Assembly (NCBI GenBank): GCA_011390155.1
Contig: JAABSW010000018.1
Span: 1-51,132, forward strand
DNA: 51,132 bases
Direction of reading: 5' to 3'
DNA from: Clostridiaceae bacterium
Lineage (GTDB): Bacteria > Bacillota > Clostridia > Peptostreptococcales > Tindalliaceae
Shown: one piece after another, positions 263-42,401 of the stretch
Position numbering within the stretch: position 1 is the stretch's first letter
Layout of the letters: each line of letters opens with the position of its first letter
Translations under genes and position numbers: made by a program
The notes under the pieces: model-generated
Seen by the model: only the letters and a program-made list of their open reading frames with translations
The model's database searches: none
What the model was told of the DNA's origin: nothing

Positions 263-538
263 CTATTGAGTATTAACATCGATGACTTCATGGATTAAGG
301 AATGCACTTCTTCCAACTGGTCAAGGTTCAGAGAATAGAAACAATACTTGCCTGCCCGGTTTTCTGTTACTAACTCGGCTTCCACCAGGATCTTCATGTG
401 GTGAGAGACTGACGGTTGTTTTAGCTTGATCAGTTTTTCCACATCTCGTCCAGTCATGTTTCTGATTTTCAAAGTTTTTAATATCTCTAACCTGCGTTTA
501 TCTCCCATTGCTTTGAAATATTTGAAACGATCATCCAC
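263..538 (-). CDS. ArsR/SmtB-family transcriptional repressor
   Basis: A small winged-helix regulator. The core shows the ArsR pattern: KYFKAMGDKRRLEILKTL, then the recognition helix around KQPSVSHHMKIL and the wing ENRAGKYCFYSL. I prefer the GTG at 538 (91 residues): AGGGG sits 7 bases upstream, while the more upstream ATG at 580 has no Shine-Dalgarno and lies inside the operator palindrome. No classic CxC metal site is seen, so the inducer is unknown. The gene has its own promoter and a palindromic operator over the predicted transcription start, which implies autorepression. No ars transporter is adjacent; the arsenate reductase gene is 10 kb away. Confidence 0.85.
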   Translation of the reverse strand: MDDRFKYFKAMGDKRRLEILKTLKIRNMTGRDVEKLIKLKQPSVSHHMKILVEAELVTENRAGKYCFYSLNLDQLEEVHSLIHEVIDVNTQ

Positions 539-577
539 TGAATCACCCCTATCCATTTTCATTGCCAACGAATTAAT

Positions 578-591
578 CATATAATTATATG
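578..591. promoter_or_regulatory. Candidate ArsR-type operator palindrome
   Basis: A perfect 14-bp palindrome, CATATAATTATATG, placed just downstream of the -10 hexamer and over the expected transcription start of the repressor gene. Confidence 0.6.
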
Positions 592-692: not shown

Positions 693-974
693 TTAGTACT
701 TTTCAAGCATAATTTTCTTCCATTTAAAGAGTTTCGAAAAAGAGATTTCCACTCCAGAGCTTTCTTCAACCATTTTAGCAGGGATTAAGATAGAGATATT
801 TTCAACAATAAATTCTTTGTAACCCTCCGGATTACTTACGGGTTTACCCAGATCGATGACTGCCACGTCTACGGTGCCCGAATGACATCAGCCTTGTTGG
901 GTGTACCGGATGGTGGCAAACCCACCTTCCTCCTTAATATAGCTCACAGCTTCAGGTTCAATGGTTATTTTCAT
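693..974 (-). CDS. Selenoprotein of the CC/Se motif type, Sec at TGA 888-890
   Basis: Reading the in-frame TGA at 888-890 as selenocysteine gives one 93-residue protein. It starts MKITIEPEAVSYIKEEGG, has the motif QQG-Sec-C-HSG at residues 26-33, and ends at TAA 693-695. Coding character is the same on both sides of the TGA, and the residue after it is Cys, matching the small HesB/IscA-like family known as CC/Se motif (seleno)proteins. The function of that family is not established; a redox or metal/sulfur role is only inferred. The ATG overlaps the stop of the upstream isomerase gene (TGATG), so translation is coupled. A hand fold downstream of the TGA gives a short stem with a 7-base loop about 14 bases away, a weak SECIS candidate. 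yedF, a selenium-linked gene, lies 3 kb away. Standard gene callers would split or miss this gene. Confidence 0.82.
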
Positions 975-2026
975 CAATAATACTCCTTTACTCCTTGTTT
1001 TAGGTAACGATGAAGGTCATAGGGAGTGTAAATACCCTGGTCTGTGACCACACCGCTAACCAGGTGGGGTGGGGTGATGTCAAAGGAAGGATAATAACCC
1101 TTAACCCCCTCAAGTGTGTTTTTAATGCCCCTGGCTTCCAATACCAGCTGTGGATCTCGCTCTTCAATCTTGACGGTGTCTATGCCGGGGTGACCGGCAT
1201 CAGGAAAGCCGGTGACGAAGTAAGGGATGCTGTGGTACTTCGCAGTGATGGCTAATTGATAAGTACCGATTTTATTGACAATGTGGCCGTCCATACAAAT
1301 GACGTCGGCAGCAGAGGTGAATACGTCTATTTTTTTCGTTGCCATGGTAAAGGCTGGCATGTTGTCAGTGATCACCGTTGTGTCAAACCCCATGTCCTGG
1401 GCCACACTGGCAGTGAGGCGCGCGCCCTGAAAATAAGGGCGGGTTTCTGGCACAAAAAGCTTCAACTCCTTGCCTACTTCCATTGCCTTGCGCAGCATGG
1501 TGCCCACGATGGTTTCACCAAAGCACTGGGTCATGATGTGACCATCGTTAGGAAACATGTCCACTAAGTAAGCGGCTACAGTGTCCATGGTGGCATAACG
1601 CCGGTTGAGGGAATCCATGGTGCGGTTAAAGATGGCCTCCACCAAATCTTCTCCTTTTTCGCGAGCCTGGATTGCGGCTTTCAGACAACCCTCTGTTACC
1701 TGCACCATACGACTGGTGGTGGTAGGACGGGCGTGGGACAGGGTATGGGCAGCTTTTTTCAAGCACGCCCACATATCTTCTTCTTTCATGTGACGGCATT
1801 CATAGGCTGCCAATGCCATTCCCATACCTGCAGCCGTGTAAGGACCCGCACTTTGGGTCACCATGTCGGCGATTGCCTGGGCCACTTCCTGATGGGTGTG
1901 ACAATTGACAAACCGGACCTCTGTGGGGTATATACGCCTGTCGAGAATCTTGACAGCCCCCTGGTCATACCAGGCCACATTTTCGTACTGGAGCATAAAA
2001 GCCATTCCATAATCCTGACGTTCCAT
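974..2026 (-). CDS. mtnA: MtnA/eIF2B-like sugar-1-phosphate isomerase (divergent)
   Basis: A 350-residue member of the S-methyl-5-thioribose-1-phosphate isomerase family, which turns an aldose-1-phosphate into the ketose. Family motifs are clear: ARPT with Arg100, Cys168 (catalytic Cys), ETRPYFQGARLT with Gln200, AAD with Asp241 (catalytic Asp), VNKIGTY with Asn251/Lys252, and IEERDP near the end. The usual RGAP phosphate-site loop is replaced by QSAGP at residues 58-62, so the substrate may differ from methylthioribose-1-phosphate. The gene sits 26 bases after a purine nucleoside phosphorylase and overlaps the selenoprotein start by one base. An operon making and isomerising a ribose-1-phosphate-type sugar is a reasonable reading. 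Symbol by family only. Confidence 0.8.
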   Translation of the reverse strand: MERQDYGMAFMLQYENVAWYDQGAVKILDRRIYPTEVRFVNCHTHQEVAQAIADMVTQSAGPYTAAGMGMALAAYECRHMKEEDMWACLKKAAHTLSHARPTTTSRMVQVTEGCLKAAIQAREKGEDLVEAIFNRTMDSLNRRYATMDTVAAYLVDMFPNDGHIMTQCFGETIVGTMLRKAMEVGKELKLFVPETRPYFQGARLTASVAQDMGFDTTVITDNMPAFTMATKKIDVFTSAADVICMDGHIVNKIGTYQLAITAKYHSIPYFVTGFPDAGHPGIDTVKIEERDPQLVLEARGIKNTLEGVKGYYPSFDITPPHLVSGVVTDQGIYTPYDLHRYLKQGVKEYY

Positions 2027-2052: not shown

Positions 2053-2874
2053 TTACATTTTTTTTACAGTTTCCTTCAACAGCACCTTGAAAGTTTCCAC
2101 TGTGCGTTCACCGATTTCTCTTACTTCTTCTATGGTAATAGGTTGGTCCAGGATGCCTGCCGCCATGTTGGAGATAAGTGACAGTCCCAGTAACTCCATC
2201 TGACAATGGGCAGCTGTCAAGGCTTCGGTGACGGTGGACATTCCCACAGCGTCTGCACCCAGGCGATGAATGGCCTGAATTTCAGCCGGCGTTTCAAAGT
2301 GCGGCCCCGGCGTGTAATAATAGACACCTTCCTGGAGGGTGATGCCCTGTTCTACTGCCACTTCGTTAACAAGTTTTCGCAGACGCTTGGTGTACATATT
2401 GGAGACATCGAAAAACCTGGGACCAAACTCATGAATGTTGACACCTCTGGTGGGGCTGGCTCCCAACAGGTTAATGTGGTCCCTGATCACCATGATGTCT
2501 CCAGGTTGATAGGCAGGGTTTACTGCACCGGCGGCATTGGTGAGAATCGTCTGTTTCACCCCAAGTGCATGAAATACCCTAATAGGGGTGGTCAGTTCCT
2601 CAAAGGCATACCCCTCGTAATAATGGAAGCGGCCAGACATACACATCACTTTTTTGCCGCCAAGGTCACCCACGATCAGTTTTCCAGCGTGTGATTCCAC
2701 TGTGGAAAGGAGAAAGTTAGGAATGTTTGCATAATCAATGACGATGGGATTTTGGATTTCCTCTGCCAAACCACCCAGGGCTGAGCCCAGTATTAATGCC
2801 ACTTCCGGCTGGTAACCGGCTTTGTTTCGAATATAATCGGCACTGGTTTGATAATGTTTATACTCGTTGTTCAT
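2053..2874 (-). CDS. Purine nucleoside phosphorylase (trimeric type)
   Basis: A 273-residue PNP/MTAP-family enzyme that cleaves purine nucleosides with phosphate to base and ribose-1-phosphate. Visible motifs are the phosphate site LILGSALGGLA, ESHAGKL (His62), GRFHYYEG, TNAAGAVNP, HFETPAE with Glu194, GMSTVTEALTA and ISNMAAG with Asn236. Glu194 and Asn236 match the pair that selects 6-oxopurines (inosine, guanosine) in this family; a methylthioadenosine phosphorylase would carry Ser/Asp there. It is the first gene of the operon with the MtnA-like isomerase and the selenoprotein. ATG preceded by a GAGGAG-like site. A weak promoter (TTGCTT, 16 bases, TATACT) is seen at 2950-2977. Confidence 0.88.
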   Translation of the reverse strand: MNNEYKHYQTSADYIRNKAGYQPEVALILGSALGGLAEEIQNPIVIDYANIPNFLLSTVESHAGKLIVGDLGGKKVMCMSGRFHYYEGYAFEELTTPIRVFHALGVKQTILTNAAGAVNPAYQPGDIMVIRDHINLLGASPTRGVNIHEFGPRFFDVSNMYTKRLRKLVNEVAVEQGITLQEGVYYYTPGPHFETPAEIQAIHRLGADAVGMSTVTEALTAAHCQMELLGLSLISNMAAGILDQPITIEEVREIGERTVETFKVLLKETVKKM

Positions 2875-3899: not shown

Positions 3900-4529
3900 T
3901 TATAACTGGTACGAATTAGCAGCTCCATTCATGAGCTCCACAATGCTGTACATATTGCCTACACCACCCACTGCCAATTGACTTTTCAGTTGAAAGTAAT
4001 CCAGACAGGTGCCGCATGAGACGATTTCCACGCCCTGCTGCTCCAACTTTCTCAGATTCGCCAATGCCTCTGAGCCTTCACAGGTGAGCTTTATACCGCT
4101 GTTGATAAATAATAGGGCTTTTGGCAACGGTGCTGCCTCTGTCAAGGTGTAGAGATAACCTTTCATAAGAATTTTCCCAAGTTCTTCCGAACCTTCTCCC
4201 ATATAATCCTTTGAAATCATCACCACCAAGCCACGATTCTGAAAATCCGGTTCTCCAGTTGCATCATACATAGGATTAACATTAATGGTATCCGGTTCTG
4301 TTTCATTCCCCGCAGCGCCCTTGGTGATTTGAACCACGTAGTTTCCCTGCTCTTCTACAACTGTATAGTCAAAACCCATGTTTTTAGCAAATTTGCTGAT
4401 GTTCTCTTTTGCTGTTTCATTGTCAACGGTGGTTCGAACCATTCCTTCTTCCATGGTTTCAAGTAATTTCTTGGTCTCAACTAATGGCACAGGACAGCTC
4501 TTGCCTGTACAATCCAGTTTTTTAATCAC
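3900..4529 (-). CDS. yedF: YedF, sulfurtransferase-like selenium metabolism protein
   Basis: 209 residues: an N-terminal TusA/SirA-like domain with the CPxP motif (SCPVPLVETK, Cys12) and a C-terminal DsrE-like domain with the pair CGTC (Cys172, Cys175). This two-domain architecture is the family that co-occurs with SelD in selenium-using bacteria; a role in handling selenium as a persulfide-like carrier is suspected, not proven. It supports true selenocysteine use in this organism, together with the selenoprotein at 693-974. ATG follows AGGGAGGAATCGTC. No selA, selB or selD is in the window. Confidence 0.88.
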   Translation of the reverse strand: MIKKLDCTGKSCPVPLVETKKLLETMEEGMVRTTVDNETAKENISKFAKNMGFDYTVVEEQGNYVVQITKGAAGNETEPDTINVNPMYDATGEPDFQNRGLVVMISKDYMGEGSEELGKILMKGYLYTLTEAAPLPKALLFINSGIKLTCEGSEALANLRKLEQQGVEIVSCGTCLDYFQLKSQLAVGGVGNMYSIVELMNGAANSYQL

Positions 4530-10497: not shown

Positions 10498-10926
10498 TTA
10501 GCTTGCTTCCTCCACAAAACGGAGTATGCGTTGATGTATTTGATCTCGGATGTCACGGATCTTTTGAAGTTTTTCTTCATCTGTTCCAGTGACGCCCGAG
10601 GGATCTTCAAAACTCCATTGATAATTTATTACCTTTCCAGGAAAAATTGGACACCTTTCAGAATTGGCTGCATCACATACAGTGATTACATAGTGATATA
10701 AACGGCCTTCTTTAAAAAAGTCAAACACGCTGTCAACTGAATTGTTGGATAAATCATAGCCCTCTTCATTCATAACCTGTAGTACCATGGGATTCAACGT
10801 GCCTTTCGTTAAACCGGCACTTTCAGCCACAAAATCGTTTTTTCCATAATGATTTAAAAAGGCTTCAGCCATCTGACTCCTGGCAGAGTTATGTACACAC
10901 ATAAAGAGTACTTTTCTTTTGTCCAC
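10498..10926 (-). CDS. arsC: Arsenate reductase, thioredoxin-coupled (low-MW phosphatase fold)
   Basis: 142 residues. The P-loop CVHNSARS (Cys10, C-x5-R) and the redox pair Cys84/Cys92 (VITVCDAANSERCP) match the thioredoxin-linked ArsC class; the second pair is one residue further apart than in Bacillus. DPSGVTGTDEEKLQKIRDIRDQI is the usual C-terminal helix region. It reduces arsenate to arsenite in the cytoplasm. GTG start after AAGGGGATGATAAC. No arsenite pump is adjacent. It lies 55 bases after the EAL gene on the same strand. Confidence 0.92.
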   Translation of the reverse strand: MDKRKVLFMCVHNSARSQMAEAFLNHYGKNDFVAESAGLTKGTLNPMVLQVMNEEGYDLSNNSVDSVFDFFKEGRLYHYVITVCDAANSERCPIFPGKVINYQWSFEDPSGVTGTDEEKLQKIRDIRDQIHQRILRFVEEAS

Positions 10927-39372: not shown

Positions 39373-39411
39373 AAAAAAGCCCCGTCTCTGCATATTTGCA
39401 GGGACGAGGCT
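39373..39411 (-). terminator. T-box controlled terminator upstream of ilvN
   Basis: On the minus strand AGCCTCGTCCCTGC pairs with GCAGAGACGGGGCT and is followed by a T run. The T-box motif (39418-39431) is directly upstream, as in standard T-box attenuators. Confidence 0.88.
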
Positions 39412-39606
39412 ATGCCACGCGTTACCACCCTAATTGTCTTTGTGGTACACCACAAAAACCTCTCCATCAGGTTCAATCAAACCCTTTGCCTGTAACGGGA
39501 CTTCCCGTTGACTCTTACTGGCCATCTTCAGAGTCACTGCTCCGGAGTGAGTCGCGCCTTTCCCGCAGTACCGATTCACAGCTGCCACCGGCTCTCTGAG
39601 ACTGCT
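39373..39606 (-). promoter_or_regulatory. Downstream T-box unit, apparent leucine (CUC) specifier
   Basis: The conserved antiterminator motif AGGGTGGTAACGCG is at 39418-39431. Stem I features precede it (AGAGAGCCGGTGG, GTGAATCGGTAC, AGTAAG, CCCGTTACAGGC). In the specifier position the sequence GA-CUC-ACUCCGGAG places CUC (Leu) at 39549-39551, aligned by eye with the upstream unit. Uncharged tRNA-Leu would stabilise the antiterminator and allow ilvN to ilvB transcription. Specifier assignment is inferred from position. Confidence 0.82.
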
Positions 39607-39647
39607 TTGGTTTGGACGCTAATTCCATCAACGCATTTTCTTCTGAT

Positions 39648-40920: not shown

Positions 40921-40949
40921 AAAAAACAGGCTGGTAACTCCAGCCTGTT
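40921..40949 (-). terminator. Terminator after the cold shock gene
   Basis: AACAGGCTGG / CCAGCCTGTT stem and T run on the minus strand. Confidence 0.88.
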
Positions 40950-40981
40950 CAGGTTCGGGTTTATTTGAAATCCGATTAGGA

Positions 40982-41182
40982 TTAAGCCCTTTGAACGTTA
41001 GTTGCTTGAGGACCTTTATCACCATCGACAATTTCAAAGCTAACTTCTTGTCCTTCTTCCAGTGTTTTAAATCCATCCATCGTAATTGCAGAGAAATGAA
41101 CGAACACATCTTCACCATTTTCTCTTGAGATAAATCCATACCCTTTTTCTGCGTTAAACCATTTTACTGTACCTTTTTCCAT
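40982..41182 (-). CDS. Cold shock protein (CspA family)
   Basis: 66 residues, standard Csp size. RNP1 KGYGFIS and RNP2 VFVHFSAI are visible, as is [13 protein letters not shown] at the start. Binds single-stranded nucleic acid. AGGAGGTCATGTAAG before the ATG. Own promoter at 41247-41276 and terminator, so monocistronic. Confidence 0.95.
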
Positions 41183-41246
41183 TCTTACATGACCTCCTAG
41201 ATCCTTAAAAAATTAATGAAAATATCGTGTATTCCCACCAATTAGA

Positions 41247-41276
41247 ATAGTAACACAGTTGTTCGACATTTGTCAA
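41247..41276 (-). promoter_or_regulatory. Promoter of the cold shock gene
   Basis: On the minus strand TTGACA (41271-41276), 18-base spacer, TACTAT (41247-41252). Confidence 0.65.
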
Positions 41277-41333
41277 CCAATTTGATGAATTTCGGGTCGA
41301 AAAAGAAATCGTTTGCAAAAACCAAGACGCTGG

Positions 41334-42401
41334 TTAGAACCGTCCCAACAACATGGAAATTTGAATAACCGCCACATGAATAAAGAGGGGAATCACTCCG
41401 GTTAAGGGAAAATACTCCCACCACTGAACAGAATTATCACTTTCACCATCTTCTGTTGTTTCAGCCTCTGGAATTTTTGATTCAGAATCATTCTGAATTC
41501 TTTTTTCCACTACGCCAGGGATTACTTTCTGTTTCTGATGAGGTTCATTCTCCAATGGCAAGGTGAATGATTCTGTCGATTGATCATTGTCCACAACAAC
41601 TGTGAGCGATTTCAATTTATTATACAGGTAGTAAGAAATAACCATCCCCACTACAGCCAGCACACCAAAGAATATCAGGCTGACCAAAAGTGAATCACCC
41701 AGCGTCACTTCTGCCAACTCCATTTCTTCCGCTGGCAGAACACCGGCTAATAGATTGAACACATACCCAAGGGTTATGGCAAGTGCATTGTTCATAATGT
41801 GTCCAATAATACCTGCATAAAGGGAATTGGTTACCCAAACCAAAGCCCCAAAAACCAGTCCCAGTACTGTGGCACCTAATAAATTGTAGAGATTATAATG
41901 GAACAACCCAAAAAGGATACCACTAATGAGAATAGCTTTCCCCTGCCCCAATTTTTCATATCCTCTCAGAATAAAACCCCTGAAAAAAACCTCCTCACAA
42001 ATACCTGCCAACAGGGAAACGATGAGCATGAGGCGAATGTATTCAAATGGAGTGCTTGCGGTAGGCATTTCAGGGATATCAATGGTACCAATACGTGTCA
42101 GTATGTTAAACATGATCAAGTTTCCTGTAACGGCTGTCGGGTACATAAAAACGGTGATTAAGGCTGCCATAGCTCCCTGCTTCAGGGTTATCCGATTAAA
42201 GCGCAGAATTTTACGTACATCCATTCGAAATATTTCAAGATAGAGAAAGGGAGGTAATAACACCACCGCCAGTTGTGTTATGATGAGACCGGTGTATAAT
42301 TCCCGTTGCTGCACCATATAACCAACGGTAAAAAATAATAAACTGCCAATGAGAAATAGTAAATTGGCATCAAATACGCGAAGGGTTGTCCTTCTAACCA
42401 T
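41334..42401 (-). CDS. CPBP-family intramembrane metalloprotease
   Basis: 355 residues. About eight hydrophobic segments, with the family motifs EEVFFRG (Glu136, Glu137, Arg141), FGLFHYN (His168) and HIMNNALA (His201, Asn205) giving the metal and catalytic site of the CAAX/bacteriocin-processing type. A polar stretch of about 70 residues (TEDGESDNSV region) lies between the last two hydrophobic segments. Substrate unknown. AAAAAGGGAGTGAAATCAAC before the ATG. Confidence 0.88.
   Translation of the reverse strand: MVRRTTLRVFDANLLFLIGSLLFFTVGYMVQQRELYTGLIITQLAVVLLPPFLYLEIFRMDVRKILRFNRITLKQGAMAALITVFMYPTAVTGNLIMFNILTRIGTIDIPEMPTASTPFEYIRLMLIVSLLAGICEEVFFRGFILRGYEKLGQGKAILISGILFGLFHYNLYNLLGATVLGLVFGALVWVTNSLYAGIIGHIMNNALAITLGYVFNLLAGVLPAEEMELAEVTLGDSLLVSLIFFGVLAVVGMVISYYLYNKLKSLTVVVDNDQSTESFTLPLENEPHQKQKVIPGVVEKRIQNDSESKIPEAETTEDGESDNSVQWWEYFPLTGVIPLFIHVAVIQISMLLGRF

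Follow-up and report, generated by a model that had tools for sequence, protein, structure and literature searches.

A small gene on the minus strand of the window, that is, of the whole 51,132-nucleotide stretch of DNA analysed in this study, has a single TGA codon in its reading frame. Is this TGA translated as selenocysteine (Sec)? If so, what could direct the recoding, and what might the protein do? I performed a computational analysis of the gene, its homologues, and the genes around them. The explanation that I consider likely as a whole is that the gene encodes a HesB/IscA-like selenoprotein, that its recoding would be directed by a distant hairpin (SL2) lying behind a spacer domain (SL1), that the protein would have a metalloid-related role linked to arsenic-resistance (ars) genes, and that its present neighbours in the window are incidental.

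The UGA codon and the protein family

The gene (693..974, minus strand) runs from an ATG to a TAA codon and encodes a protein of 93 residues. The UGA codon at 888..890 (minus strand), in the context QQGUCHSG, would be read as Sec at residue 29 (GUCHSG). A preliminary description of this DNA had proposed that the frame is open on both sides of the TGA and that a Cys follows it; translation with TGA as U gives U29-C30. The description had also placed the protein in the CC/Se family. This assignment was confirmed by NF041239, the model of the CC/Se motif family (seleno)proteins, which matches residues 1-91 with 60.6 bits at a curated cutoff of 40, while a Pfam search at E-values up to 1 listed no family for the protein. 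The kind itself is not new, since NF041239 is listed as a selenoprotein family with the motif CxxU in a part of a published review (PMC13188914). The window protein has GUCHSG in place of CxxU, and other members above the NCBI cutoff show CU, UC, and GGU forms as well. Because the motif varies among members above the cutoff, I take CxxU as the description of one representative and rest membership on the curated score. Compared with the known (Moorella) type of NF041239, the window protein shares a score above the cutoff across the full length and a Sec or Cys at one site. Its clade differs in the GUC[HR]S motif instead of the reviewed CxxU, in a SECIS-like hairpin at 59 nt, and in its ars neighbours.

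The host genome encodes the complete Sec machinery. It has a tRNASec gene (selC, 73.4 bits), selA (608 bits), and, both on one contig, selB (396 bits) and selD (372 bits). All four genes whose presence had been suggested as a check were thus found, which bears out the selenium use proposed earlier from the nearby YedF (3900-4529; TIGR03527, 223.8 bits). Two further NF041239 matches in the genome have one TGA each, one of them scoring under the curated cutoff. In the same genome, the selD gene (L041, G000:C28, 8862-9959, minus strand) carries its own in-frame UGA near the start (LTSLTKSAGUAAKIGP) and shares its contig with selA, selB, and selC. A HesB-like gene (L224, 1456-1752, minus strand; G000:C94:65324-65548, minus strand) also has an in-frame TGA, in the context GIGUAGP, and scores 37.2 bits against TIGR01911, under its cutoff.

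How is the TGA distributed among the homologues? NF041239 matches were found in 33 of 60 genomes (E up to 0.001, own genome counted), and in 27 of the 60 they lie above the cutoff. A family set of 100 loci was assembled from 58 of the 60 NF041239 matches (the two weakest being dropped), 36 of the 43 non-window matches, and six clade-profile matches; it is a non-random sample, 42 of whose loci came via the clade profile. At the site in question 76 members have Sec, 22 have Cys, and two have neither, the Cys site having been chosen by a simple rule and not by alignment. In the tree of the 100 members, the window protein falls in a clade of 17 (support 100/99). TGA occupies the Sec site in 17/17 of these, a count that is partly built in because the members were picked by GUC[HR]S, a motif that includes Sec itself. 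The tree clade is exactly the set with this motif, with no Cys member joining it. The TGA is present in each of the 16 clade-profile matches (E up to 1e-15), and the Cys version of the motif, GCC[HR], is absent from all 100 family members. The Cys homologues that had been suggested as a check therefore exist in the family but not inside the clade. The copy of Anoxynatronum buryatiense, 60-61% identical to the window protein, has its TGA at the same position. An assembly error at the window TGA, which the preliminary description had named as a danger, is very unlikely, because A. buryatiense, the rest of the clade, and the profile matches share the TGA at the same site. A search of 391 genomes of the class (E up to 1e-15) gave no additional clade member, and searches of plasmids and viruses gave no relative of the window protein.

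It is scarcely credible that the UGA is a true stop leaving a 28-residue peptide and a relic frame beyond it: UGA reads as stop by default and the Sec reading is a sequence-based one, but the residues after the UGA are conserved across distant genomes (so that the homologues do not end at the TGA, another point raised earlier), the UGA is kept throughout the clade, the 22 Cys members have an open frame, and the genome has the full Sec machinery. On these sequence grounds, the window gene almost certainly encodes a selenoprotein, one that belongs to a known family.

The HesB-like relationship suggested earlier was supported at the level of profiles and of the predicted fold. A 20-row family profile was compared by hhalign with the HesB-like protein of the same genome, a single HesB-like sequence; the probability was 95.9 and the E-value 5.8e-9, with the Sec sites aligned. 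The window protein itself gave no match at E-values up to 1 to TIGR01911, the model of the HesB-like selenoproteins. A structure model made from two sequences (pLDDT 69.5) gave SufA/IscA-type proteins in the first seven Foldseek rows, with E-values of 0.015 to 0.19 and none below 0.001. The fold Z-score was 5.6 at most, a range that the tool grades as middling, and the ten top rows are nearly all IscA-type or putative iron-sulphur biosynthesis proteins. In a sequence search of solved structures, every match had an E-value of 0.74 or higher. The A-type iron-sulphur carriers IscA and SufA have three cluster Cys residues, including a C-terminal CxC. The window protein resembles them in its predicted fold and differs in having no Cys at the C-terminus and hence no CxC. 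It is probably a small selenoprotein of the HesB/IscA type, with U29 and C30 as a pair of neighbouring Sec and Cys residues at the site that aligns with the Sec of the HesB-like selenoprotein.

Arsenic-resistance genes beside the clade

Genes of arsenic resistance lie beside 9 of the 17 clade members, neighbours being counted within 4.5 kb; many of the loci had about 5 kb per side and some had less than 1 kb on one side. The fullest row in the clade is arsR - CC/Se - arsC - acr3 - arsD - arsA. In seven of the nine ars-linked members, which span two taxonomic families, arsR is directly upstream of the CC/Se gene. Profile searches identified the neighbours in two loci of different families. In G008, acr3 (381 bits), ArsD (117 bits), and an ArsR/SmtB regulator (99.7 bits) are above the profile cutoffs, accompanied by a TRC40/GET3/ArsA-family ATPase (253 bits) and by an arsenate-reductase-like protein under the cutoffs (113 vs 157.6 bits). 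In G428, acr3 and ArsR/SmtB were found. One of the nine members (G047) has an arsC-like gene alone. Outside the clade, arsC-like or acr3-like neighbours occur at 4 of 83 loci (G230, G106, G170, and G134), and all four encode all-Cys forms. One genome has a second ars-linked copy (L184, G526:C1:1935308-1935586), whose match holds two TGA codons.

The 17-member clade (100/99) has two deep branches, and ars-linked members occur on each of them. Eight members have no ars match nearby, except for the ArsR of the window. Six of these eight form one clade (f6) beside a sigma-70-region-2 gene. The other two, the window copy and that of A. buryatiense, form a pair that joins seven ars members (99/78, a non-starred branch); the A. 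buryatiense gene has methionine-sulphoxide-reductase and RibD-C-type genes nearby. Since ars members are found on both deep branches, the simplest reading of these sequences is an ars-linked ancestor with two departures, one by the f6 clade and one by the window and A. buryatiense pair. The window copy would then have an ars ancestry. At the level of whole genomes, Acr3 is present in 14 of the 16 genomes that carry the clade. The contrast among 60 relatives is weak, with Acr3 in 8/10 carriers vs 22/50 non-carriers.

The window copy itself is outside any ars operon, with no adjacent arsC, acr3, arsD, or arsA. Downstream of it lies a gene for an ArsR/SmtB-family regulator (263..580, minus strand; NF033788, 68.8 bits, cutoff 55), which is probably a unit of its own. 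I considered this regulator as a sign of arsenic control and rejected it, because it lacks a CxC and its gene comes with a separate promoter-like site at 625-597. This site matches in 11/12 positions, and chance alone yields many of the kind (12 found vs 8.4 expected in the region). The genome does have an arsR-acr3 pair on another contig (C45), on which the NF041239 search found no CC/Se gene.

Taken together with the tree, these neighbourhoods make the clade look like an arsenic-resistance lineage of the family, which is possibly new: among literature titles covering part of the print record, I recognised none that joins NF041239 to ars genes. The clade would have arisen or spread next to arsenic-resistance genes, and the protein would likely use its selenol-thiol pair to retain or reduce a thiophilic metalloid, in the first place As(III). 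The ars neighbourhood could also be a frequent landing place and nothing more, the protein being an iron-sulphur carrier or a redox carrier of a general kind, not specific for metalloids. I judge this to be the less probable account, yet one that deserves serious weight, as the fold is HesB/IscA-like, 8 of the 17 members are located elsewhere, and neither arsC nor acr3 lies near the other Sec-type members of the family that were tested. Several points speak against it: the recurrence of arsR immediately upstream in two families, the presence of ars members on both deep branches, the four all-Cys relatives that also adjoin arsC or acr3, and a C-terminal part that offers no Cys for a cluster. 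The ars neighbourhood offers this orphan selenoprotein family its first candidate substrate that could be tested.

A distant SECIS-like hairpin and a foldable spacer

What could direct Sec insertion at this UGA? In the bacterial SECIS (bSECIS) model, as outlined in a part of the review (PMC13188914), a stem of 4-16 bp carries a loop of 3-9 nt with a G in its first two positions, the apical loop lies 16-37 nt from the UGA, and the minimum free energy is at most -7.5 kcal/mol; some genes do not fit. The fold of the bases after the UGA is not unusual (z -0.37, and -0.09 in a second test). SL2 (819..835, minus strand in the window), which I propose as the SECIS, is a hairpin of 7 bp with a GGA loop, whose apical loop is 59 nt past the UGA. 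This distance is 59 nt in 16 members and 58 nt in one. Sixteen members have a 7-bp stem and a GGA or GGU loop; the remaining member has an 8-bp stem and a loop of five bases.

I scanned the Sec members of the family for hairpins with a G in the first two loop positions and an energy of at most -3. Such a hairpin at 50-65 nt is found in 17/17 clade members vs 0/59 other Sec members. At the canonical 16-37 nt, the numbers are 2/17 in the clade vs 50/59 in the others; the scan is imperfect, as nine of the 59 have no canonical hairpin at this threshold. A stricter scan for GG- or GU-loop hairpins (at most -4 kcal) recovered them in 60 of the 76 genes with Sec but in only one of the 22 with Cys; one of the two genes with neither residue had such a hairpin, as did 69 of 760 codon-shuffled Sec genes. 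Being common in Sec genes and rare in their Cys relatives, these hairpins track Sec and not the protein family itself. In one CC/Se paralogue from the window's own genome (L043, G000:C1:213933-214196), a gene with a TGA, scanning revealed no clear hairpin with a GG/GU loop.

The SL2 stem covaries. In the alignment of the 17 rows, 118 of 119 cells are paired and 17 cells are changed on both sides. Neither the covariation score nor the percentage paired was reached by any of 500 shuffles, while two further measures were unremarkable against shuffles, namely the number of double-change pairs (61/500) and of further pair types (499/500). Because the stem is coding, nulls that preserve the codons were also applied. 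When codons were exchanged between sequences that share a residue, at most 114/119 cells were paired in 2000 trials; with redrawn codons, the maximum was 106/119 in 1000 trials.

SL2 thus resembles the bSECIS model in its stem of at least 4 pairs and its GGA/GGU apical loop, and differs from it in the distance (58-59 nt vs 16-37 nt), in the foldable spacer that intervenes, and in the weaker energy of the window hairpin (-6.7 kcal/mol for SL2 alone vs the published limit of -7.5; -19.8 for the region of SL1 and SL2). As 59 nt falls outside 16-37 nt, I file SL2 as a variant SECIS. It would be used by SelB with Sec-tRNA to decode the UGA.

It is unlikely that SL2 is a conserved hairpin with some other role and that the true SECIS is a degenerate structure closer to the UGA. 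The published distance range favours such a structure, as do the 5 of the 17 members, each with ars neighbours, in which positions +18 to +38 form a complete 7-bp stem, and a canonical-position hairpin of -7.6 that the A. buryatiense gene has in addition. However, I rejected the stem at +18 to +38 as a common SECIS, since it pairs in only 58.8% of cells over the 17 members, no better than shuffles. A G-loop hairpin at 16-37 nt is likewise confined to two members, whereas SL2 matches the published loop pattern, of which the Cys relatives have so few examples.

If SL2 is the SECIS, how would it act from such a distance? According to the part of a published source that bears on this point (PMC8659212), the SECIS stem-loop of E. 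coli is 11 nt from the UGA. The spacer between the UGA and SL2 is predicted to fold as a closed domain, SL1 (839..880, minus strand). Folded distances were calculated by counting one base pair as one step, and the null was made by redrawing the codons of the spacer. The mean distance from the UGA to SL2 is 15.8 steps over the 17 members vs 21.5 in the null; in 15/17 members less than half of the nulls come as close, and in 7/17 members less than 5% do. For the window gene the distance is 13.2 (null 20.3). The folding of the spacer (+10..+51) has a mean z of -2.0 over the 17 members and a z of -0.42 in the window, so that for the window alone SL1 is not significant, neither by the folding z nor by the fraction of nulls at or below its distance (0.08). 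Two members, G047 and the second copy of G526, have no shortened ensemble distance. The inner stem of SL1 shows no covariation at fixed columns and its register varies between members. For these reasons the role of SL1 as a spacer domain is put forward only as a model. By this model, folding of SL1 would put SL2 at about 11 to 20 steps from the UGA in 15 of the 17 members, comparable to most paralogues, whose hairpin stems start 12 to 19 nt away. Outside the clade, L078 (5102-5138, plus strand) and L085 (3202-3162, minus strand) carry a hairpin of 8 bp at +15 and, beyond it, a second one with a GGU loop at +35 or +37, and they may be intermediate cases of the folded-spacer layout.

The displaced SECIS-like hairpin may be new, more surely so than the ars lineage; I recognised no literature title, within the part of the print record that was covered, describing a bSECIS so far from its UGA. 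A broader proposal is that there is a second layout of the bacterial SECIS, in which the spacer folds, the hairpin bound by SelB is about 59 nt away, and the folded distance sets the recoding, and that this layout is used by a Sec-Cys protein of ars operons that binds or reduces As(III). I would give this proposal an even chance. Selenoprotein finders that demand a distance of 16-37 nt would overlook the clade genes or model them wrongly. A far hairpin in 17/17 vs 0/59 members within one family is also a natural experiment on what counts for SelB and the ribosome, the number of bases in between or the folded distance.

Neighbours of the gene in the window

In the window, the CC/Se gene is the final gene of a row on the same strand, behind a purine-nucleoside phosphorylase (PNP) gene (2053..2874, minus strand; PRK08202, 354.4 bits) and a gene for an MtnA-like sugar-1-phosphate isomerase (974..2026, minus strand; PRK05720, 346.5 bits). 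Its ATG overlaps the stop codon of the isomerase gene as TGATG, as had been noted before, and GGAG motifs closely precede it. The contig terminates 692 bases beyond the CC/Se gene. The preliminary description regarded the gene as the last of a nucleoside-salvage operon; the terminal position in the PNP-isomerase row stands, but a meaningful link to salvage does not.

The overlap, the shared strand, and the terminal position behind PNP and the isomerase might suggest a joint role of the selenoprotein and the overlapping isomerase in nucleoside or 5-deoxyribose salvage. I regard this as very doubtful. No isomerase or PNP was found in the flanks examined of the other family loci, either in a survey of 57 of them or in one of all 99. 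Conversely, none of eight orthologous isomerase loci in relatives has a CC/Se gene in the sequence examined; in this survey a ninth orthologue (G058), at a contig end, was left out, and G050 covers only about 0.2 kb past the isomerase. The salvage link was rejected on both counts, and the PNP and isomerase neighbours of the window gene are probably incidental.

What, then, is the isomerase? It is a paralogue, as another MtnA-like gene, 33% identical to it, is present on contig C1 of the genome. Its orthologues in nine relatives have 53 to 72% identity. A gene of the S-methylthioribose-kinase family, checked by profile, is near the orthologous isomerase in L155, L156, and L162, and a gene of the fuculose-phosphate-aldolase family is near it in L155 by profile, other loci being similar by eye. 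A three-gene set for 5-deoxyribose salvage has been described in part of a published account (PMC6079011). Because the kinase and aldolase neighbours of the orthologues resemble this set, the window isomerase is probably DrdI-like.

A few further observations were made in the window. A low-molecular-weight arsenate-reductase-like protein is encoded at 10498-10926 on the minus strand, with 106.6 bits against arsC_pI258, under the cutoff of 174.3. Two Rfam matches lie on the same strand, a T-box leader at 39397-39640 (112.2 bits) and a cspA thermoregulator at 40921-41352 (82.3 bits). Finally, the pair of PNP and DrdI-like isomerase may lead from nucleosides to 5-deoxyribose 1-phosphate without a kinase, whereas the orthologues of the isomerase sit with kinase and aldolase genes.
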